A stretch of 64,000 bases of DNA from Lachnospiraceae bacterium (GTDB lineage Bacteria > Bacillota > Clostridia > Lachnospirales > Lachnospiraceae). Position 1 is the stretch's first letter; every line of letters begins with the position of its first letter. This document shows positions 2,756 to 18,428 of this stretch, in pieces. A program made the translations under genes and the position numbers. Location: contig JAILEM010000084.1 in the NCBI GenBank assembly GCA_024687745.1, forward strand, positions 1 through 64,000. Direction: 5' to 3'. The notes beneath the pieces are model-generated. The model saw nothing but the letters and a program-made list of their open reading frames with translations, made no database searches and was not told the origin of the DNA.

Positions 2756-3226
2756 TCATCTTGAACGCATTTTTTTAACGAATTCCACAAAGCTCTTACG
2801 GGTATCCTTTAATACACGATTCGTAAGGATATATCCGTGGCTGGCATCCGTATACACTATCACGAGGGTAGGACGGATGGTAACGCTTATGACATCCTTC
2901 CAGGGATGTCTTTCATGCTTACCCGAAACCGTTATCTCCATTCCCCGTTCATTAAAGGTAAGCTCTATGTCATCCTTCATTTCCGCTACCTGTTTTACTG
3001 AGCTGTAATATATGAACAGGGGCTGGATCACTGTAAAAAGTGAAAGAAAGACAAGCATGAGAAGCCTGAACCAAAGTGCTGAGGTTCTCCACAGTGCCAC
3101 AATGAGCGCTATGGAGGCAAAAATACATACTATGTTGACAACGGCCGTGTAGGAGGCGTATGCATAATACATCCTGACCTGCCACACGTCCGAAGCCTTT
3201 ATTTTGTAACGATATTTAAATTCCAT
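2756..3226 (-). CDS. YcxB-like small membrane protein
   Basis: 156 aa; two hydrophobic segments, then a soluble segment (MEITVSGKHERHPWKDVISVTIRPTLVIVYTDASHGYILTNRVL) like the YcxB C-terminal domain. Directly follows uxaC (1-bp gap). Confidence 0.6.
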   Translation of the reverse strand: MEFKYRYKIKASDVWQVRMYYAYASYTAVVNIVCIFASIALIVALWRTSALWFRLLMLVFLSLFTVIQPLFIYYSSVKQVAEMKDDIELTFNERGMEITVSGKHERHPWKDVISVTIRPTLVIVYTDASHGYILTNRVLKDTRKSFVEFVKKMRSR

Positions 3227-4651
3227 TTAAACCTTCTCCAGATCAAACCCAAAATAATCAACGGCATTGTTGAAGGATATACCTCTGATTATTCCTCCAA
3301 GGAGCTTGTCATCCATAGGATATTCCCCGTTCTCGACCCATTCTCCGATAAGCCTGCAGAGTATCCTTCTGAAGTAATCATGCCTTGTATAGGAAAGGAA
3401 CGACCTTGAATCGGTGAGCATTCCGACAAAGTTTCCAAGTACCGAAAGGTTGGCAAGAGACTTTAGCTGGTTTGTCATTCCCACAAAATGATCGTTGAAC
3501 CACCATGCGGATCCCTGCTGTATCCTGTTTTTCACTCCGTTCTTTCCCTGGAAGCAGCCAATGACCGTACCTATGGCCTGATCGTCATTGGGATTTAAAG
3601 AATAGACTATGGTCTTTGGTATCTCATCGGTCTTTGAGAGTGCATTTAAAAAGTCAGCAAGCTCGCTTGAAGGAGCATAGTTATTGATACAGTCAAATCC
3701 GGTGTCAGGACCTAATCTGTCATACATATACCCGTTATTGTCTCTCTTGCAGCCGTAATGAAGCTGCATTACCCAGTCACGCTTATTGTATTCCTTAGCA
3801 AGGTAGAGCATCATCGAGGTTTTGAATTTAAGAGAGTCCTCTCTTGATATGGGCTCTTTGTTAAGACCCTTCTTAAGGATCGCATCGATCTCATTGTCAT
3901 CTGCCGGTACATACATCACATACTCAAGGGCATGATCGCTCACTACACAGCCATGCTTTGCAAAATGGTCAAGACGCTTTGTTATTGCAGCCTTAAGTGA
4001 AGAAAGATCCTTAACCTCTGTTCCCGAAACCGCTGAAAGCTTTGCGATATATTCCTTAAATTCGGGCTTTTCTATGTTGTTGATCTTATCAGGCCTCCAT
4101 GCGGGAAGAACCTTTACCTCAAAGCTCTCATCAGCCTTTATTTTCTCATGCCATTCCAGAGAATCTATAGGATCATCCGTTGTGCATATAAGCTTTACAT
4201 TGGATTTTCTTATGATATTTCTGACCGTAAAATCATCGCTGTTGAGCTTTTCATTACAGAGATTCCACACTTCTTCCGCAGTATCTGCGTTAAGGTTACC
4301 CTGATATCCGAAGTAGTATCTTAGCTCTAAGTGTGACCAGTGATAGAGGGGATTACCGATGAGTCTTGGCATGGTTTCAGCCCATTTCTGAAATTTCTCG
4401 CGGTCTGATGCATCCCCTGTTATATACTTTTCGTCAATGCCGTTGGTACGCATCTGACGCCATTTATAATGATCGCCTCCAAGCCATACCTGGGCTATGT
4501 TTTCAAACTTTCTGTCTTCATATATTTCCTGAGGATTGATATGGCAGTGATAATCAAGGACAGGTATCTTTGTCATATCCGCATGATCCCCATAAAGCTT
4601 CTTAGCCGTATCGGTATCCAGCAGGAAATCTTTATCCATAAATGCTTTCAT
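3227..4651 (-). CDS. uxaC: Glucuronate (uronate) isomerase
   Basis: MKAFMDKDFLLDTDTAKKLYGDHADMTKIPVLDYHCHINPQEIYEDRKFENIAQVWLGGDHYKWRQMRTNGI is diagnostic of UxaC. Confidence 0.96.
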   Translation of the reverse strand: MKAFMDKDFLLDTDTAKKLYGDHADMTKIPVLDYHCHINPQEIYEDRKFENIAQVWLGGDHYKWRQMRTNGIDEKYITGDASDREKFQKWAETMPRLIGNPLYHWSHLELRYYFGYQGNLNADTAEEVWNLCNEKLNSDDFTVRNIIRKSNVKLICTTDDPIDSLEWHEKIKADESFEVKVLPAWRPDKINNIEKPEFKEYIAKLSAVSGTEVKDLSSLKAAITKRLDHFAKHGCVVSDHALEYVMYVPADDNEIDAILKKGLNKEPISREDSLKFKTSMMLYLAKEYNKRDWVMQLHYGCKRDNNGYMYDRLGPDTGFDCINNYAPSSELADFLNALSKTDEIPKTIVYSLNPNDDQAIGTVIGCFQGKNGVKNRIQQGSAWWFNDHFVGMTNQLKSLANLSVLGNFVGMLTDSRSFLSYTRHDYFRRILCRLIGEWVENGEYPMDDKLLGGIIRGISFNNAVDYFGFDLEKV

Positions 4652-7862: not shown

Positions 7863-7910
7863 CTGACATGTTAGTTGATAGCATTATATTATCACGCTGA
7901 CATGTTAGTG
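7863..7910. promoter_or_regulatory. Two direct operator-like sites upstream of dctP
   Basis: CTGACATGTTAGTT (7863-7876) and CTGACATGTTAGTG (7897-7910), offset 34 bp; related site at 9132-9146. Confidence 0.6.
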
Positions 7911-8699: not shown

Positions 8700-9026
8700 T
8701 TATTTAAGAAAATCCTCTCTCTTTGGTGTAAATATGTCTAAAAGCTTTACCCTGGTGAGACAGTCTATACCGTGGGAAACATTCGGAGCGACTATATATG
8801 TGTCTCCGGTGTTTAAGGTAACATCCTCCTTACCCTCCTCATGAAAGACAAGGCTTCCCTCTATAACATAGCCTATCTGCTCATGCGGATGGGAATGCAT
8901 CTCACCCTTTGCACCCTTTTCAAACAAAAGCTCCACATTCATTATGTTGTCGCTGTATGCAAGGACCTTACGCAAAACGCCCCCACCAAGATCCCTGTAT
9001 TCCTTCTCGCTGTTTATTACAAACAT
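8700..9026 (-). CDS. Cupin-domain protein
   Basis: GAKGEMHSHPHEQIGYVIEGSLVFHEEGKEDVTLNTGDTYIVAPNVSHGIDC; start at MFVINSEKEY (9026) preferred to track start 9083. Confidence 0.85.
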   Translation of the reverse strand: MFVINSEKEYRDLGGGVLRKVLAYSDNIMNVELLFEKGAKGEMHSHPHEQIGYVIEGSLVFHEEGKEDVTLNTGDTYIVAPNVSHGIDCLTRVKLLDIFTPKREDFLK

Positions 9027-9131
9027 GATAAATTCTCCTTTATCTGACGATACTGACCGATCACAGAAAGCAATTCTCTGCATTTCTGAAGATCATTTTT
9101 ATATATCCGTAAAGCATTAGTCAAGAGCACC

Positions 9132-9146
9132 AACTAACATGTTATT
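9132..9146. promoter_or_regulatory. Third copy of the operator-like site, upstream of the cupin-GntR pair
   Basis: AACTAACATGTTATT; its reverse complement shares ACATGTTAGTT with the dctP sites. Confidence 0.5.
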
Positions 9147-9273: not shown

Positions 9274-10599
9274 TCATACCCTAAGCCTTGTCCTAATGAG
9301 ATATATCCCAAGGATCGCAGAGAGTATTTCCGTGGCACTCATGGCTATCCACATACCATCTCCCCCGAAGATCTTTGAGAGAATAAGGATCATCAGCGCA
9401 TAGATGACAAGGCTTCTCATCAGCGAAAAGAATCCCGATACCCTTCCGTTGGAATATGCGGTAAAAAGACCTGAGACAAACATGTTAAATCCGGTAAAGG
9501 CATAAACTCCGGCGGCAAGTAAAAAGCCCTTAACCGCGATACTGTAATATTTAGAATCAACCTCGAAGAAGGAAGCTGATATATTTTTTCTGAAAGCTGT
9601 CACGGACAACGTTATGATGATGCTGCTGCATCCGACTATCTTAAGGCTTTTGCTTATAAGGCTTTTTAATTCCTTTCTGTTTTTCTGACCGTAAAAATAA
9701 GCGATCAAAGGCTCGAGCGCAACTAAAAAGCCCATGAATACAAAAGAGACCATGTATATGATATTGGTGATAACGCAGACAACACTCATGCCTACGGCTC
9801 CCCAGTATTTTCCCGAAACATTGTTTAAGATTACTGTGACCACTGCAGTTGATATGCTTGATAAAAATTCCGATATCCCGTTAAAAAAAACCGCTGACAT
9901 CTCCTTTATATCTATCCTGACAGGCTTTAGATCATAGACACTTGTCTTTTTGACCATTACAAAAGCTGTCAGTGTCTGAAGAAGGTATCCCAGCCCCGTT
10001 GCAAGTGCAGCACCGGCTATACCTGTATTTAAAAATCCCATGAATATGATATCCAGAATACAGTTTGTCAGCCCTCCCGCCAGCTCAAGAACCGCCACAA
10101 GACCTAACCTTCCCTCTCCTATGAGCATGAGATTTATCACACAGGAAAACAAGAGAACCGGCATAAAGCAGACGCTTACCCTGTAGTAGCCGGTGACATA
10201 AACGGCATTATCTCCCGTCATACCAAGCAGCTTCATAACAGGGTTTTGAAGGATAAAAAATATGAGAGGTATCGATATCCCCAGAAAAATGGCACAGGTC
10301 ATTAACTGACTGTGCAGATCCTGTGCCTTTTTGTGATCATTTTCACCCTGCGCCTTCATAATGGCAGCATTGCCGCCGGTACCTGCCATATAACCAAGAC
10401 CGACAAAAAGAGACACGACCGGAAGAAATACACTCGTCGCCGCTATAGCCGTCTCATTGATAAAGATATCTATAAGCAGAGAATCGATCACAGCATACAG
10501 TGCTATCACAAGATATATGATTGCACCCGGGGCAACTGTCTTTATCAGCTCCTTAAGAGACATATTTTCCGATATTAATACCGATGCATCCTTACTCAT
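9274..10599 (-). CDS. MATE family efflux transporter
   Basis: 441 aa, about 12 hydrophobic segments; LFVGLGYMAGTGGNAAIMKAQGENDHKKA typical of the family; 8-bp overlap with the NRPS-like gene. Confidence 0.9.
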   Translation of the reverse strand: MSKDASVLISENMSLKELIKTVAPGAIIYLVIALYAVIDSLLIDIFINETAIAATSVFLPVVSLFVGLGYMAGTGGNAAIMKAQGENDHKKAQDLHSQLMTCAIFLGISIPLIFFILQNPVMKLLGMTGDNAVYVTGYYRVSVCFMPVLLFSCVINLMLIGEGRLGLVAVLELAGGLTNCILDIIFMGFLNTGIAGAALATGLGYLLQTLTAFVMVKKTSVYDLKPVRIDIKEMSAVFFNGISEFLSSISTAVVTVILNNVSGKYWGAVGMSVVCVITNIIYMVSFVFMGFLVALEPLIAYFYGQKNRKELKSLISKSLKIVGCSSIIITLSVTAFRKNISASFFEVDSKYYSIAVKGFLLAAGVYAFTGFNMFVSGLFTAYSNGRVSGFFSLMRSLVIYALMILILSKIFGGDGMWIAMSATEILSAILGIYLIRTRLRV

Positions 10600-13522
10600 A
10601 TATCACTTCTTCCCTGATCTTATCTGTTTTATATAAGGGCTCTTCAATATGTGAGACAAGAAGGCAGGCGGTTTTTATAAAAATATCCCTGAACCTGTTT
10701 ATGCTCTCAGGCTTATAACATTCCGGTATATAATCCATATACAGTAAACATCCTTCCTTTATTTCCTGTATCTCGATATCAAGAAGATTATCGGCGACCG
10801 GATCCTTTTGGGGTATCTCGATAAGTGAAAAATCAAGGGCTCCCTCACTTGCTATATCTCTCAGGTTCTGCTGGTAAAGAAAACCGGCATCGATCCCTTC
10901 ATTATCAAGTCTTTCAGGTCCCGGATACGGATAACAGGCATAGATCATATTATTTCTTATCTGTCTGTTGACATCCAGATAGAGCTCCTCCACGGTCAGA
11001 TCCTTCTTAAAATGTATTCCCACATAGAATTCCCTTATCAGGGTGCCTATTATACTCTGATCCTCTTCCTTTTCCCTTCCGTTAAATATCCAGCTGATCT
11101 TTATATCCCTCTTATCATTATAGATACTGATAGCAAGAAGTGTTACGGTTAAGAAAAAAGCATTCTTTGTGACTCCCGATTTTTCCTGAAGCTCTTCATA
11201 TTTCCCGGTATCTATCGGTATCACCGCCTTAAGATTACCATATCCATTCACAACTAATTCCGCATCGGGCTTTGGATAACAATCCCATTCGTTCTGATCG
11301 AGAAGCTCAGAATAATACCGTTTGCCTTCCTCATAAAGGGAAGACTTTGCCTCAAGCCTTCTCTCCGTAAGCTTTAAATAATAATGGTCCTCCATAAGCT
11401 CCTTACCCTCATATGCATAACAAAGATCACGGATAAGTATCTGCAATGAGGTTCCGTCGGCAATGCTGTGATGAAGATCCATAAAGAGATACCCTCCCTT
11501 TTCGGTCTGAAAAAGCCTTACCCTGTACATTTTACTGTTTAAAAGCTTATAGGGTTTAACAAGGTTTTCCATCTCAATGACAAACTCATCCTCGCTAAGC
11601 TTTTCTGTCTCTACGTTCAGATCCATATCCTCAATATATCTCTGAACCAGCTCCGTATCGTCGTTGAAGCAATAGATCGTTGAGAAAACAGGATGGGTTC
11701 TCAGAACCTTCCCGACCGCATTTTTTACACCCTCGATATCCGTATCCTTTGAGAACTTAAGAAGGATATTAAGATTCCAGGTGGTGGATTTTGGAACATA
11801 ACACTGATAATCAAACATATATTGCTGCGACAGCAAAAGCGGCTGATCCTGTCTCAGAGCTTCCTTATTTTTACTGTCTCTCTCCTTTTGACCGACTGAC
11901 AATAACCTTTTATATCTTTCCGCTATCTTCTTAGGCGTCCCCTCACTCAATACAGTCTTATAATCAAGCAAAGGCCAGTCAAGCTCTGTCAGAAGGCTCA
12001 TTATCGAAACAGAATCTCCTCCCATATCACAGAAATTGTCGTAAACACCGACCTTCTCTATATGAAGTACCTTTTCCATTGCCCTGCAAAGCTTCTTCTC
12101 CTCCTCATTTTCAGGAGCAGAATATTTATGCATATAGCTTGAGATATCGGGTTTTGGAAGATTCTTTCTTGAGAACTTACCGTTATTGTTAAGCGGTACT
12201 GCATCCAGTTTCACAAAAAAAGAAGGGAGCATATAAGAAGAAAGATGATCCTTCAGCTCTTCCCTGGCCTGTTCTGTGGAAACCTTCGGATCATCGATAT
12301 AATAGGCACAGATATAGGTGGTCTCTTTCTCGGCAAAGGCTCTGACAGCCGTCCATTCAACCCCAAGTATCCTGCTTAGGACCTTTTCTATCTCTGCCGG
12401 CTCAACGCGGTTCCCTCTTATCTTGATCATATCATCATTTCTGCCGTTAAGGACAATATTACCATCAGGAAGCCTGTGACCGATATCGCCTGTGCTTATA
12501 TATTCACCAAGTCTTATCTTTTCTGTCATCTCGGGAAGATTAATATATCCTCCAAAATACGGATCCTTATAGCATATAAGTCCTGCCTCCCCGTCTTTTA
12601 CGGGCTCTCCCTTCTCATCAAGGATGCATACACAGGCCTCTTTGACACAGGGTTTTCCTACAGGTGTAGTGCTGTATTTCTTATCGATCCTAAAGGATGT
12701 GATATTGAAACAGGATTCTGATTGCGCATAAAGACAATAGACATCTATATTTTCATAATAAATATCATCAGCCCTTTCACCTCCTGTTATGAGCTTCTTT
12801 ATTGTATCCGGGAAGGAGGGGATACGCCTTAACATGGAAGGAGTGACAAAGGTTATCGTGATATTGTACTCCTTTAAATATTTCATGAAATCATCCGGAT
12901 TCCTTACTGTCTCCATCGGAAATATAACAAGAGTGGCTCCGTTATATAATATGGGCAGTATCATCAGAAGAGTGGCCGCAAAATTAAGAGGGGAGGTAAG
13001 AGCGAGTCTGTCTCCCTTATCCATTACCCTGATGCCATCACAGTAATTTCCCTTTATGCACAGATCCTGCATTCCGAACTGGTGCATGACACCCTTCGGA
13101 TTACCCGTTGTTCCGGAGGTATATACAATATAACAGGGATCAAACGGAGATACCTTTTCATACCCTTTTCTTTCCTCACAGTCCATCATCTCATTGAAAA
13201 GCTCACTGTCGATCATAAGAGAGCATCCTGCATCCCTGTATATATAATCCCTGCGCTCTCTGGCAAATTCCGTAGCGACCATGGTGGCACAGGCTCCTGC
13301 ACGCCATATTCCGACCAGTGCGATAACCGGCTGTACTTCCCTCGGAAGATATATCATCACCACAGACCCTTTTCCAATACCTTTTGCCTTAAGATACTCA
13401 TACACCTTTCCCGAGAGCTGATAAAGTGAATCATAAGTTATCTTTCGTCCGGTTTTTGCGCTTATCAGCGCAATATCCTTACCTTTGTTTTTACATATCT
13501 CTTCAAACCGTTCTGTAAACAT
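10592..13522 (-). CDS. NRPS-like enzyme, adenylation - carrier protein - condensation (A-PCP-C)
   Basis: A domain: YTSGTTGNPKGV, STGDIG, GRNDDMIKIRGNRVEPAEIE, NGKFSRKNLP. Carrier: DMGGDSVSIMSL. C domain: LHHSIADG (HHxxxDG). Confidence 0.9.
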   Translation of the reverse strand: MFTERFEEICKNKGKDIALISAKTGRKITYDSLYQLSGKVYEYLKAKGIGKGSVVMIYLPREVQPVIALVGIWRAGACATMVATEFARERRDYIYRDAGCSLMIDSELFNEMMDCEERKGYEKVSPFDPCYIVYTSGTTGNPKGVMHQFGMQDLCIKGNYCDGIRVMDKGDRLALTSPLNFAATLLMILPILYNGATLVIFPMETVRNPDDFMKYLKEYNITITFVTPSMLRRIPSFPDTIKKLITGGERADDIYYENIDVYCLYAQSESCFNITSFRIDKKYSTTPVGKPCVKEACVCILDEKGEPVKDGEAGLICYKDPYFGGYINLPEMTEKIRLGEYISTGDIGHRLPDGNIVLNGRNDDMIKIRGNRVEPAEIEKVLSRILGVEWTAVRAFAEKETTYICAYYIDDPKVSTEQAREELKDHLSSYMLPSFFVKLDAVPLNNNGKFSRKNLPKPDISSYMHKYSAPENEEEKKLCRAMEKVLHIEKVGVYDNFCDMGGDSVSIMSLLTELDWPLLDYKTVLSEGTPKKIAERYKRLLSVGQKERDSKNKEALRQDQPLLLSQQYMFDYQCYVPKSTTWNLNILLKFSKDTDIEGVKNAVGKVLRTHPVFSTIYCFNDDTELVQRYIEDMDLNVETEKLSEDEFVIEMENLVKPYKLLNSKMYRVRLFQTEKGGYLFMDLHHSIADGTSLQILIRDLCYAYEGKELMEDHYYLKLTERRLEAKSSLYEEGKRYYSELLDQNEWDCYPKPDAELVVNGYGNLKAVIPIDTGKYEELQEKSGVTKNAFFLTVTLLAISIYNDKRDIKISWIFNGREKEEDQSIIGTLIREFYVGIHFKKDLTVEELYLDVNRQIRNNMIYACYPYPGPERLDNEGIDAGFLYQQNLRDIASEGALDFSLIEIPQKDPVADNLLDIEIQEIKEGCLLYMDYIPECYKPESINRFRDIFIKTACLLVSHIEEPLYKTDKIREEVIYE

Positions 13523-13553
13523 AGTCCCCCTAAATCCTTCAGATCCATTATCA

Positions 13554-15035
13554 TTATAAAGTTACACCGTCCTTAAAAATTGATATCTCTCTGTAACCGT
13601 TCTCCTCACATCTTGTCAGCTTTCCGGATGCAGTCTCAAGGACAAGATCAAGCAGTCTTTCCCCTGCCTCATCAAGAGTTTCCTTCCCCTGCGCAACGCC
13701 TCCCGCATTAAAGTCTATCCAGTTGCCCTTTTTCTCATAAAGAGCTGTATTTGTCGATATCTTAAGTGTGGGTGCGGGAGCTCCGAAGGGTGTACCTCTT
13801 CCGGTTGTAAAAAGGATCATATGTACTCCTGCAGCTGTAAGATCCGTAGTACTTACCATGTCATTTCCGGGTCCTGACAGAAGGGAAAGCCCCTTCTTTG
13901 TAACCTCTCCGGCATATTCGAGAACATCGGTGATCTCTGCGGAACCGCCCTTCTGTACGCAGCCACAGGACTTATCCTCAAGCGTTGTTATCCCACCCGC
14001 CTTATTCCCGGGTGAGGGATTCTCATATACCACCTGCCCGTGTGATACAAAATACTGTTTAAAATCATTGACCATCTTAACGGCCTTTTCGAATATATCA
14101 GCATTTTTACATCTGTTGAAAAGTATGGATTCGGCTCCGAACATTTCGGGCACCTCTGTGAGGACCGTCGAACCGCCGAGCGCTATCAATCTGTCCGAAA
14201 AACGTCCCACTACAGGATTTGCCGTCACACCCGAAAGACCGTCGGACCCTCCGCATTTCATTCCCACTATAAGCTCGGATGCGGATATCCTTTCTCTCTT
14301 AAAGGTACCTACATAGTCTGCTATCTCCTTAAGAAGCCTGCTGCCCTCCTCTATCTCATCCTCTACATCCTGACAGGTAAGGAATTTGACTCTTTTCTCA
14401 TTCCATTCCCCAAGCTCTGCCTTAAACTGTTCCGTTGTCAGATTTTCACATCCAAGGGACAGTACAAGGACTCCTCCTGCATTGGGATGACGGACAAGCG
14501 CCGCTAAAAGCTTTCTTGTTGTCGCATGGTCATCACCCATCTGCGAACAGCCAAAGGGATGAGTAAAGGTATAAAGTCCCTCTACGCTACCCTTTACAAG
14601 CTCCTTATTGGAATTCACAAGGTTTTCGGCTATCCTGTTCACACATCCGACGGTAGGGATTATCCATATCTCATTTCTTATCCCCGTTTTTCCATCGGGC
14701 CGTTTATAACCCATAAAGAATCTCTCCTCTGCTTTGGGAAGATCATAAAATACAGGTTCATAAACATATTCGGCATCCTCTGACAGGGAGGTCCTTACAT
14801 TATGGGTATGAACCCACTGCCCCGATCCTATGTCAGACTTTGCGATACCTATCTCATTACCGTATTTTATAACGGGACTACCCTCTTTGATGTTTACAAG
14901 GGCAATCTTGTGACCTCTTGCCACATCCTCTAAGACCTCTATACTGCCATCTTCAGTGGTGATCCTTTCACCCTTTGCAATATCCGAAAGGGCAACTGCA
15001 ACATTATCCCTTTGATGTATCTTAATATATTTCAT
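13554..15035 (-). CDS. uxaA: Altronate dehydratase
   Basis: N-terminal SAF-like region and GYKRPDGKTGIRNEIWIIPTVGCVNRIAENL, GLSLLSGPGNDMVSTTDLTAAGVHMILFTTGRGTPFG. Confidence 0.94.
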   Translation of the reverse strand: MKYIKIHQRDNVAVALSDIAKGERITTEDGSIEVLEDVARGHKIALVNIKEGSPVIKYGNEIGIAKSDIGSGQWVHTHNVRTSLSEDAEYVYEPVFYDLPKAEERFFMGYKRPDGKTGIRNEIWIIPTVGCVNRIAENLVNSNKELVKGSVEGLYTFTHPFGCSQMGDDHATTRKLLAALVRHPNAGGVLVLSLGCENLTTEQFKAELGEWNEKRVKFLTCQDVEDEIEEGSRLLKEIADYVGTFKRERISASELIVGMKCGGSDGLSGVTANPVVGRFSDRLIALGGSTVLTEVPEMFGAESILFNRCKNADIFEKAVKMVNDFKQYFVSHGQVVYENPSPGNKAGGITTLEDKSCGCVQKGGSAEITDVLEYAGEVTKKGLSLLSGPGNDMVSTTDLTAAGVHMILFTTGRGTPFGAPAPTLKISTNTALYEKKGNWIDFNAGGVAQGKETLDEAGERLLDLVLETASGKLTRCEENGYREISIFKDGVTL

Positions 15036-15064: not shown

Positions 15065-16549
15065 TCAGGCAATAACTGCCTTCATAGCTTCATACATTCC
15101 CTTTTCTTCTATCAGCTTAAGACTGTCATCGACAGCAGCTTCAAATCCGGGAAGGTTCTTTAAGGTATCCTCCCACATTCTTTCATTGTTTACAACAGCT
15201 TTTGCAAGCTCTGTGAGTGATGCATCCTTTAATTCATAAAAGGCATCGAGTACCCACTCATCATCCTTTATCTCAAAGGTATCGTTTCCTCTCTTACCTA
15301 TAAGGCACTTATCACCCTTCTCTGTTCCTAAATGATAGAAGCAGAGGAAGGCTGCAAATGAGAAGGTAAGAACACGGGGAAGCTTCTTATTCTGCTCATA
15401 ATACTCAACAACTGTGGGCATTACCCTTGCCTTCCACTTGGACTGGGAATTAAGGGATATGGAAAGAAGCTGATGATCTATGAAGGGATTTGCGAACCTG
15501 TCAGAAACTGCCTTTGCAAACTCAAGCAGATCATCCTCTGAAAGGGAAGCCTTGAGAACAGGGATTATCTCCTCATAAAGAGCCTTGTTCATAAATCCTT
15601 TGATGACCTCATCCTTCATGCAGTCTCTTACGATATCCTGACCGGAAATGTAAGCAGCCATTATCATTGATGTATGTGCACCGTTTAATATACGTACCTT
15701 ACGCTTCTTATAAGGATCAACGTTATCAACGACCATAATCGGAAGGCCTGCCTTTTCGATGGGGAGCTCATCCTTTATGGACTGAGGCCCTTCTATAACC
15801 CATGCGCCGAACACCTCCGCTGTGTCCAATATATTGTCCTGATAACCAAGCTCCTCACAGATGGAAGCAGCCTCGTTCCTCGGATAACCGGGAACTATAC
15901 GGTCAACTAAGGTAGAGCAGAAAACATTCTCCTCTTCCACCCACTTCTTGAAATCATCTCCAAGACCCCACTGCTCTATATATTTTCCCACACATCTCTT
16001 AAGCTCATCACCGTTTCTGTCTATGAGCTCGCAGGAAAGGATGATAAAGCCCTTTAATTTATTGTTATATCTTTTATACAAAAACTGGGTAAGCTTTCCG
16101 GGAAAGCTCGAAGCGGGCCTGTCCTCTTCTTTACAGGAGGGATCATAGGCGATACCAGCCTCGGTCGTATTACTGACTATGAACCTTAACTCGGGATTTG
16201 ATGCGCACTCCATCAGTGCATCATAATCCCTGTATGGATTAAGGCATCTCGAAACACAGGAAATTACCCTCTTTCTGTTGACCTTCTCTCCGTTCTCCTG
16301 CCCTCTCAAAAACAGGGTATAGAGTCCTTCCTGCTCATTGATCATATCCGCAAGTCCCTGTTCTATAGGCTGTGTTACCACAACCTTTCCGTTAAAGCCG
16401 GCCTTTTCGTTCATCATATCGAAGAAATAATCAACAAAGGCTCTTAAGAAATTTCCCTCTCCGAACTGAAGAACCTTTTCCGGTGCACTTTTAAGTGTAT
16501 ATCCGTCATAACCGGTTTTAGCTAATGTTTCATAATTTAATCTGTCCAT
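15065..16549 (-). CDS. uxaB: Tagaturonate reductase
   Basis: VLQFGEGNFLRAFVDYFFDMMNEKAGFNGKVVVTQP and VRILNGAHTSMIMAAYISG typical of UxaB. Confidence 0.93.
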   Translation of the reverse strand: MDRLNYETLAKTGYDGYTLKSAPEKVLQFGEGNFLRAFVDYFFDMMNEKAGFNGKVVVTQPIEQGLADMINEQEGLYTLFLRGQENGEKVNRKRVISCVSRCLNPYRDYDALMECASNPELRFIVSNTTEAGIAYDPSCKEEDRPASSFPGKLTQFLYKRYNNKLKGFIILSCELIDRNGDELKRCVGKYIEQWGLGDDFKKWVEEENVFCSTLVDRIVPGYPRNEAASICEELGYQDNILDTAEVFGAWVIEGPQSIKDELPIEKAGLPIMVVDNVDPYKKRKVRILNGAHTSMIMAAYISGQDIVRDCMKDEVIKGFMNKALYEEIIPVLKASLSEDDLLEFAKAVSDRFANPFIDHQLLSISLNSQSKWKARVMPTVVEYYEQNKKLPRVLTFSFAAFLCFYHLGTEKGDKCLIGKRGNDTFEIKDDEWVLDAFYELKDASLTELAKAVVNNERMWEDTLKNLPGFEAAVDDSLKLIEEKGMYEAMKAVIA

Positions 16550-16671: not shown

Positions 16672-17535
16672 TTACATAAGATCCTGATTTGCCACATCAT
16701 CCATATCATCAAAATCCTGATTCTCTCCTACCATTCCCCAGATAAAGGTATAAGCCTGAGAACCTGCACCCATATGTATCGACCAGCTCGGGCTTATGAC
16801 CGCCTGTTCATTTCTCATGACTATATGCCTTGTTTCCTGAGGTTCTCCCATGAAGTGCATTACAAATGCATCCTCGGGGATATCAAAGTAAAGATATACT
16901 TCCATCCTTCTGTCATGTGTATGACAGGGCATCGTATTCCAGATGCTTCCCGGCTTTAACTCTGTCATTCCCATCTCAAGCTGGCAGGTCTCAACCTGTC
17001 CCGGAAGTATATATTTGTTTATTACCCTGTGGTTTGCACCCTCTAAGGATCCAAGCTCCTTCTTATTCTCATCCTTTATTATGACTACATCCTCAGCAGG
17101 TTCACCCTCTCTCTTAATAAGGACCGTTTTATAGGTTTTATGTGCGGGTGCTGAATTTATATAAAACTTTGCGGGTGTTTTAATATCCTTTGAAGCAAAG
17201 GTTATATCCCTGCTGCCCATTCCTATATACATTGCCTGCTTATAATCAACCTCGTATTTCTTTCCGTCGATCGTTATAACCCCGGCGCCTCCTATGTTGA
17301 TGACACCCATTTCCCTTCTCTCAAGAAAGTACTCAGCCCTCAGCTCATCTCCTGCCGTAAGCTTAAGCTCCTCCTTCACAGGAGTTGCCGATCCGGTTAT
17401 TATCCTGTCGATATGGCTGTATACAAGCTTGATCTCATCCGGCTTAAAAAGATCGTCTATAAGGAATTCCTTCCTTAATCTTTCGGTATCATAATACTTT
17501 TCATCCTTAGGTGAACATGCTGTCCTTAATTCCAT
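16672..17535 (-). CDS. kduI: 5-dehydro-4-deoxy-D-glucuronate isomerase
   Basis: NTMPCHTHDRRMEVYLYFD, FMGEPQETRHIVMRNEQAVISPSWSIHMGAGSQAYTFIWGMVGENQDFDDMD typical of KduI. Confidence 0.96.
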   Translation of the reverse strand: MELRTACSPKDEKYYDTERLRKEFLIDDLFKPDEIKLVYSHIDRIITGSATPVKEELKLTAGDELRAEYFLERREMGVINIGGAGVITIDGKKYEVDYKQAMYIGMGSRDITFASKDIKTPAKFYINSAPAHKTYKTVLIKREGEPAEDVVIIKDENKKELGSLEGANHRVINKYILPGQVETCQLEMGMTELKPGSIWNTMPCHTHDRRMEVYLYFDIPEDAFVMHFMGEPQETRHIVMRNEQAVISPSWSIHMGAGSQAYTFIWGMVGENQDFDDMDDVANQDLM

Positions 17536-17546
17536 TTTTATCCTCC

Positions 17547-18428
17547 TTATTCTGCTTTGACTTCTTCATATACCCTCTCAACAAATTCCCTGGCCCTTAT
17601 GGCATTTTCGGGAACTGTATCCTCGAGTGTACATTGAACATATGGCTTATATTTCTTTATCTTTCCCATCAGAAGCTTATGATCAAGCTCTCCTTCTCCT
17701 GATGCTACCGACCTTATATCATCTCCCTCCACCTTAAAATCCTTAAGATGGACAACGGCTATATCATCCTTTAGAAGCTCAAAGGTTTCATTTATGATAT
17801 CATCCTGTCTGTCTATGTTCTCTCTGCACAGAAGATTTACCGGATCAAAAATTATCTGAAGATTCGGGGAATTTATGGCATCAAGCACCTCCCTTGCCCT
17901 TTCGGGCGTATAAACTATATGTCTGTAAACGGGCTCTATCGCAAGGATCACACCAAACTGCTCACAGGCACTTATCACGGGCTTTAACCTTTCGATAAAG
18001 ATATCCCTTGCCTCCACGGTATGATTATGGGGATCATATCTGTATTCCTCATTGCAGGCCCCTGTCTCTGTACCTACCACTCCGCATCCCAATACGGAAG
18101 CAAATCTTAAATGGGCAATATATTTATTCAGAGTTTCCTTATAAACCTCCTTATCCGGATGACAGAGATTCAAATAATTACCCAAAACAGCGATATCAAT
18201 ATCATTTTTATCGCATATCCTTTTCATGTACATCGCAAGTCCGGGTGTCATTGAGCTTAACCCGGGTTCAAATTCCTTAATAGATTTTGAAAGGGCAACG
18301 TGAATACACTTAAAGCCCTGATCCTTTATGGCAGGGATCAGTTCATCAAAGGGAGCGTATCTCACATCATGAGCCCGTATTCCTATCTGCATCGGTATCC
18401 TCCTCTGATCCTTTATAGCACTGTCCAT
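17547..18428 (-). CDS. Sugar phosphate isomerase/epimerase-like TIM-barrel protein
   Basis: LAIEPVYRHIVYTPERAREVLDAINSPNLQIIFDPVNLL and VHLKDFKVEG; AP-endonuclease 2/xylose isomerase-like. Internal ATG at 18392 (MQIGIRAHD) is a possible start. Confidence 0.8.
   Translation of the reverse strand: MDSAIKDQRRIPMQIGIRAHDVRYAPFDELIPAIKDQGFKCIHVALSKSIKEFEPGLSSMTPGLAMYMKRICDKNDIDIAVLGNYLNLCHPDKEVYKETLNKYIAHLRFASVLGCGVVGTETGACNEEYRYDPHNHTVEARDIFIERLKPVISACEQFGVILAIEPVYRHIVYTPERAREVLDAINSPNLQIIFDPVNLLCRENIDRQDDIINETFELLKDDIAVVHLKDFKVEGDDIRSVASGEGELDHKLLMGKIKKYKPYVQCTLEDTVPENAIRAREFVERVYEEVKAE

Follow-up and report, generated by a model that had tools for sequence, protein, structure and literature searches.

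A Putative Amide-Forming A-T-C Synthetase and Its MATE Neighbour behind uxaA in a Lachnospiraceae Genome

Overview

Behind uxaA in a rumen-type gut bacterium of the Lachnospiraceae lies a pair of overlapping genes that encode a single-module NRPS-like synthetase, with the domain order A-T-C, and a MATE-family transporter. Our main reading, to which we give a probability of about 60%, is that the synthetase is an acyl-loading module that joins a non-amino acid to a free amine, that the MATE protein exports the amide, and that the two genes are a unit inserted behind uxaA. The A domain would activate a single carboxylic acid that has no alpha-amino group, as its pocket residues suggest; the T domain would carry this acid as a thioester on Ser504; the C domain, for which a conserved acceptor module is absent, would pass the acyl group to a freely diffusing amine; and the MATE protein from the overlapping gene would export the resulting amide. 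The pair, which separates uxaA from the cupin-GntR-TRAP genes, may owe its transcription to read-through from uxaA. The window referred to below is the whole stretch of 64,000 nucleotides that was analysed, and its features are collected in Table 1.

Table 1. Features of the uronate locus and of the synthetase-transporter pair in the window, with related genes at four other loci.
Feature	Position	Strand	Basis or remark
uxaC	3227-4651		apart from the run
cupin gene	8700..9083	(-)	far side of the insertion; directly after uxaA in G002
MATE-family transporter, 441 aa	9274..10599	(-)	PF01554; probable product exporter
A-T-C single-module NRPS-like synthetase, 976 aa	10592..13522	(-)	Pfam domains; whole-chain fold match to LgrA A1-T1-C2
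condensation domain, residues 558-966	10625..11851	(-)	HHSIADG at 11453-11473
carrier (T) domain, residues about 465-540	11903..12130	(-)	attachment Ser504 at 12011-12013
A domain, residues 6-456	12155..13507	(-)	Pfam and alignment
catalytic Lys449 of A domain	12176-12178	(-)	
A5 motif YAQSE	12716-12730	(-)	
Asp235 position of A domain (Ala182)	12977-12979	(-)	
uxaA-NRPS gap, 31 bp	13523..13553	(-)	ribosome-binding site, no terminator
uxaA, altronate dehydratase	13554..15035	(-)	upstream neighbour, not a conserved partner
uxaB, tagaturonate reductase	15065..16549	(-)	NF002969 above cut-off
kduI	16672..17535	(-)	NF002091 above cut-off
TIM-barrel epimerase/isomerase-like gene	17547..18428	(-)	PF01261; first of the run
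InlB-repeat genes near A-T-C (other loci)	L033:11157-14111, L034:4755-7838, L052:586-3618, L053:1-2259		

The Synthetase and the Transporter

A reading of the sequence alone had placed A, carrier and condensation domains with intact motifs in one open reading frame, which Pfam and the conservation of the motifs bear out. Pfam recognises an AMP-binding domain (residues 6-322, E 3e-56), a Condensation domain (E 6e-42) and, weakly, an AMP-binding_C domain (residues 377-449, with 20.8 bits against a cut-off of 24.5). The carrier domain (477-514) scores 19.3 in the whole protein, under the Pfam cut-off of 20.8, and 22.7, above it, when excised; despite the weak score, Ser504 is invariant in all 86 of the aligned homologues among the matches listed. 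The A-domain core motifs A3, A7, A8 and A10 are present, and the protein contains YTSGTTGNPKG, STGD, NGKFSR, GGDS (with S504) and HHSIADG; the second His and the Asp of HHxxxDG are likewise invariant (86/86 among the matches listed). This conservation of catalytic residues argues for a family of working enzymes.

The best whole-chain match, in sequence and in fold, is the A1-T1-C2 segment of LgrA, the linear gramicidin synthetase, in which the domain order is identical. The AlphaFold model of the A-T-C protein (mean pLDDT 83.8, pTM 0.52) matches this segment over about 1,020 columns, and its low global TM-scores are due to the placement of the domains, which is poorly reliable in the prediction, as the pTM indicates. 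The window enzyme differs from LgrA in having neither a formylation domain nor a following module nor Asp235, whereas the A1 domain of LgrA loads valine.

The earlier finding that the window contains no PPTase gene stands, but the genome does not lack one: a 294-aa protein with PF01648 is encoded on another contig (G000:C22, L049:7110-7991), which resolves the worry over a missing PPTase. This is the sole PPTase-family gene found in the genome, and it may serve fatty acid synthesis besides NRPS.

The MATE protein is recognised by PF01554 (E 1.6e-23, two stretches, 83.6 bits), and NCBIfam TIGR00797 gives it 124.4 bits, which is under the cut-off of 147.4. The coordinates confirm that its open reading frame shares 8 bp with that of the synthetase. 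Compared with MATE proteins that partner the synthetase at other loci, its E-values are about 1e-75 to 1e-149, as against about 1e-22 with bystander MATEs. The pump probably exports the product of the enzyme, direction and cargo being properties that cannot be read from a sequence.

The Acyl Substrate

The residues of the A-domain pocket were set by alignment on GrsA numbering. The window pocket is A A L F I G L F N K, and 61 of the 86 homologues among the matches listed have VAIFFGIFAK. Asp235, which binds the alpha-amino group, is absent in 86/86 aligned members and the A5 proline in 84/86 (both among the matches listed); where amino-acid modules are marked by Asp235 and YGPTE, the window protein has Ala182 and YAQSE. 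Asp235 is also missing from the first modules of the multi-module relatives L013, L014, L018, L019 and L021, while the amino-acid modules L022, L027, L029 and L048 keep both the Asp and YGPTE. Judged from its pocket residues, an A domain that has neither Asp235 nor the A5 proline points to a non-amino acid as the substrate.

The loss of Asp235 has been reported for A domains that take alpha-hydroxy and alpha-keto acids (PMC11253843). In StsA, engineered TycA and EnSyn, as in the window enzyme, a small or hydrophobic residue replaces the Asp, and the keto-acid StsA resembles it further in having lost the conserved A5 proline (PMC11253843); these three sit in longer synthetases, whereas the window enzyme is single-module. 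Caution over calls based on the pocket comes from McyG, which has Val at 235 yet activates Phe (PMC11253843). Both marks of a keto-acid module, the replacement of Asp235 by a hydrophobic residue and the lost A5 proline, are present in the window protein. Keto-acid NRPS modules carry a ketoreductase domain, for which the A-T-C protein has no Pfam match.

Another possibility is that the enzyme belongs to the gut fatty acid amide pathway, as a fusion of OaaA, OaaACP and OaaC that makes N-acyl amides from long fatty acids. This pathway, from Coprococcus eutactus, follows the same logic of an acyl A domain, a carrier and a C domain that uses a free amine, and occurs in the same bacterial class (PMC13142362). 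It consists, however, of three separate proteins, and the part of the source text that was searched describes no transporter (PMC13142362), whereas in the window there are one polypeptide and a MATE protein. Moreover, the C-domain motif of the pathway is mostly (D/H)HxxxDS or DA, with Gly in 17%, as against the Gly of HHSIADG (PMC13142362), and the best match of the whole chain is a peptide synthetase module, that of LgrA. Membership of this pathway seems rather unlikely to us.

The Acceptor

In the window genome (G000) and in six sister genomes (G018, G015, G025, G031, G004 and G029), there is exactly one C domain, that of the A-T-C protein. The other carriers in these seven genomes are stand-alone proteins of 80-130 aa, with two exceptions, C48 (G000) and a protein of 694 aa (G029), and no conserved NRPS partner of the A-T-C protein was found in the six sister genomes. 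Since the A-T-C enzyme has the only C domain in each of these genomes and the other carriers are mostly stand-alone, the acceptor would most likely be a free amine; a C domain that uses such an amine is known in OaaC (PMC13142362). The sequence-only reading, which had one loaded acyl group condensed with a free amine, thereby gains inferential support from the absence of Asp235, from the lack of another C domain or conserved partner, and from the MATE genes found next to the synthetase at 19 of 83 loci among the matches listed.

Could the acceptor instead be a second NRPS protein? The C domain would then acylate the aminoacyl-carrier of the C48 protein to give an N-acyl amino acid, which the thioesterase of C48 would release. 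This protein (L048:252-3470) is an A-T-thioesterase of 1073 aa, in which about 260 N-terminal residues are without an assigned domain; its gene lies beside a MATE-HATPase fusion and represents a second NRPS-like system in the genome. Such a split synthetase is consistent with the A domain of C48, which has Asp235 and YGPTE, with its T domain, thioesterase and MATE-like neighbour, and with the longer relatives, where A-T-C is the first module of longer lines. However, the A-T-C and C48 genes sit on separate contigs, and the C48 protein was not found in any of the six sister genomes, all of which have A-T-C, so that C48 was rejected as a conserved partner of the family. We consider the split arrangement doubtful and prefer the free amine.

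A Rumen Family with Alternating Partners

A scan based on one genome per species gave at least 398 confirmed relatives, of which 80, mostly from ruminant-gut MAGs, were kept. The family is made up of A-T-C proteins of one module each, from rumen Lachnospiraceae and Ruminococcus-type MAGs. No description of it was found in the literature covered, mostly non-subscription papers. A survey of rumen NRPS reported 5,346 clusters and shares habitat and bacterial families with the family, of which no description was found in the parts of the survey that were covered (PMC8241843).

Neighbours were counted at 90 non-redundant loci among the matches listed, 83 of which have a readable downstream side. 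Among these, the next downstream gene encodes a carboxylesterase at 49 loci (e.g., L059:10967-12640), a MATE of the window type at 19, an AspT-like permease at two and an SDF symporter at one; most carboxylesterase and MATE partners, again among the matches listed, overlap the A-T-C gene or begin within about 20 bp of it. The two kinds of partner are clustered on the tree of the matches listed and yet have been swapped several times. In a quick tree of these matches, the window protein forms one fully supported group with L033, L034, L052 and L053; the last two have no MATE directly downstream of the A-T-C gene, so that such a partner, though common, is not obligatory.

In the four closest homologues among the matches listed, but not in the window, a large gene for an InlB-repeat protein adjoins the A-T-C gene. 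Among the matches listed, 53 loci have STAS genes, and many have SpoIIE-type phosphatases and a MATE-HATPase fusion. In two such fusions, a MATE is joined to an RsbW-like HATPase_c_2 kinase domain; one (L059:5892-7658) is next to STAS and SpoIIE genes and the other (L048:3535-5346) beside another NRPS-like enzyme.

This rumen-wide family and its alternating partners are of more interest than the uronate placement, which by itself would matter only if expression proved to be induced. The choice between carboxylesterase and exporter would amount to a make-and-remove or a make-and-export logic. Given the size of the family, its near-invariant pocket and the presence of the only C domain in several genomes, an assay of a single protein could show at once what many rumen bacteria make. 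A broader and tentative idea, which we think improbable, is that these enzymes are a widespread undescribed class making acyl-amide signals in rumen Clostridia with one enzyme each: the neighbour would either export the signal (a MATE, AspT-like or SDF transporter) or cleave it (the carboxylesterase), the unit would often have as its neighbour a partner-switching module of the SpoIIE/STAS type that includes a MATE-kinase fusion, and in the present case it would have been captured by a uronate operon. If so, the signal in the window genome would respond to pectin breakdown.

Relation to Uronate Use

The sequence-only reading had linked the product to uronate use and had proposed that a lack of co-occurrence of the pair with uxaA in relatives would count against the link; no such co-occurrence was found. 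Although uxaA is present in 23 of the 37 genomes of the genus, an NRPS gene is within 1.5 kb of it in none of the 22 other uxaA-bearing congeners. The nearest NRPS-MATE pairs, in G018 (56% identity) and G015 (54%), adjoin [FeFe]-hydrogenase, aldo-keto reductase and TrkA genes, and uxaA was not detected at 1e-100 in either genome, an absence that is likely rather than certain at 85% and 94% completeness, respectively. The regions flanking 80 further loci among the matches listed contain no uxa gene. Moreover, uxaA is rarer in the carriers of single-module A-T-C proteins in the genus (3/12) than in non-carriers (20/25; Fisher p 0.003, phylogeny ignored).

Co-occurrence with uronate genes was consequently rejected, and the linkage is lineage-specific and probably incidental. 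That the pair belongs to uronate catabolism, with a uronate-derived keto acid (KDG or tagaturonate) as the acyl substrate or with a product that signals uronate, is quite improbable in the face of these distributions. The position in the operon, the short gap without a terminator, and a pocket compatible with a keto acid speak for it; the hydrophobic pocket AALFIGLFNK, on the other hand, would be unlike what a polyhydroxy sugar acid needs.

The Probable Insertion Site

The closeness of the NRPS gene to uxaA was confirmed, with a gap of 31 bp, and so was the location of the whole run from 18428 to 9274 on the minus strand. The first gene of this run, described earlier as an isomerase, is indeed TIM-barrel epimerase-like but is not uxaC, which sits elsewhere. 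The gap contains a good to strong ribosome-binding site, TTAGGGGGACTATG. As had been claimed, no terminator was found between uxaA and the NRPS gene, either in the window scan, in which promoter and terminator counts were close to what chance gives (34 sites where 31.4 were expected, and 11 where 9.8 were), or by comparison with the genome G002.

In G002, whose UxaA is 81% identical to that of the window, the order is TIM-kduI-uxaC-uxaB-uxaA-cupin-GntR-DctP-DctQ-DctM. The orders of uxaB-uxaA and of cupin-GntR-Dct are thus common to both genomes, with NRPS-MATE lying between them in the window and uxaC situated elsewhere. Directly after uxaA, G002 lacks the pair and has a GC-rich hairpin followed by eight U, a strong terminator; the window lacks this hairpin piece and the NRPS gene starts at once. 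With the terminator missing, read-through is plausible in the window genome only, where it may be how NRPS-MATE is transcribed.

The best reading is that the pair is a unit which occurs at unrelated loci and which here has been inserted behind uxaA, before the cupin-GntR-TRAP genes. Gain in the window genome and loss in G002 both fit; gain is simpler, since the pair is missing at all of the 22 other uxaA loci. An error of assembly that joined the pair to the uronate locus could be suspected in an assembly of 256 contigs whose junction was seen in no second genome, and is nonetheless very improbable: both flanks (uxaB-uxaA and cupin-GntR-DctPQM) keep the order of G002, so two misjoins would be required, and the GC and GC3 of the pair are ordinary for the window.

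Attempts to trace the origin of the inserted pair gave the following. A recent foreign origin was rejected, as the composition carries no signal of it (GC3 0.44-0.47, the same as the neighbours), and an ancestral site within the same genome was rejected too, the aldo-keto reductase orthologue on C225 having no adjoining NRPS. Neither long direct repeats flanking the pair nor a tRNA beside it were found. PADLOC gave no defence match, and in PHROGs the NRPS and MATE proteins match unnamed phage families only.

Beyond the insertion, two copies of TGACATGTTA (window 7864-7873 and 7898-7907) lie upstream of DctP. The number of sites of the TAACATGTTA/TGACATGTTA type in the window is unremarkable, being reached by 5 of 100 shuffles. 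The TAACATGTTA site itself precedes the cupin-GntR genes, at window 9135-9144, and has a conserved counterpart in G002 (L131 about 3202-3211); sites of the two kinds are possible candidates for a GntR operator.
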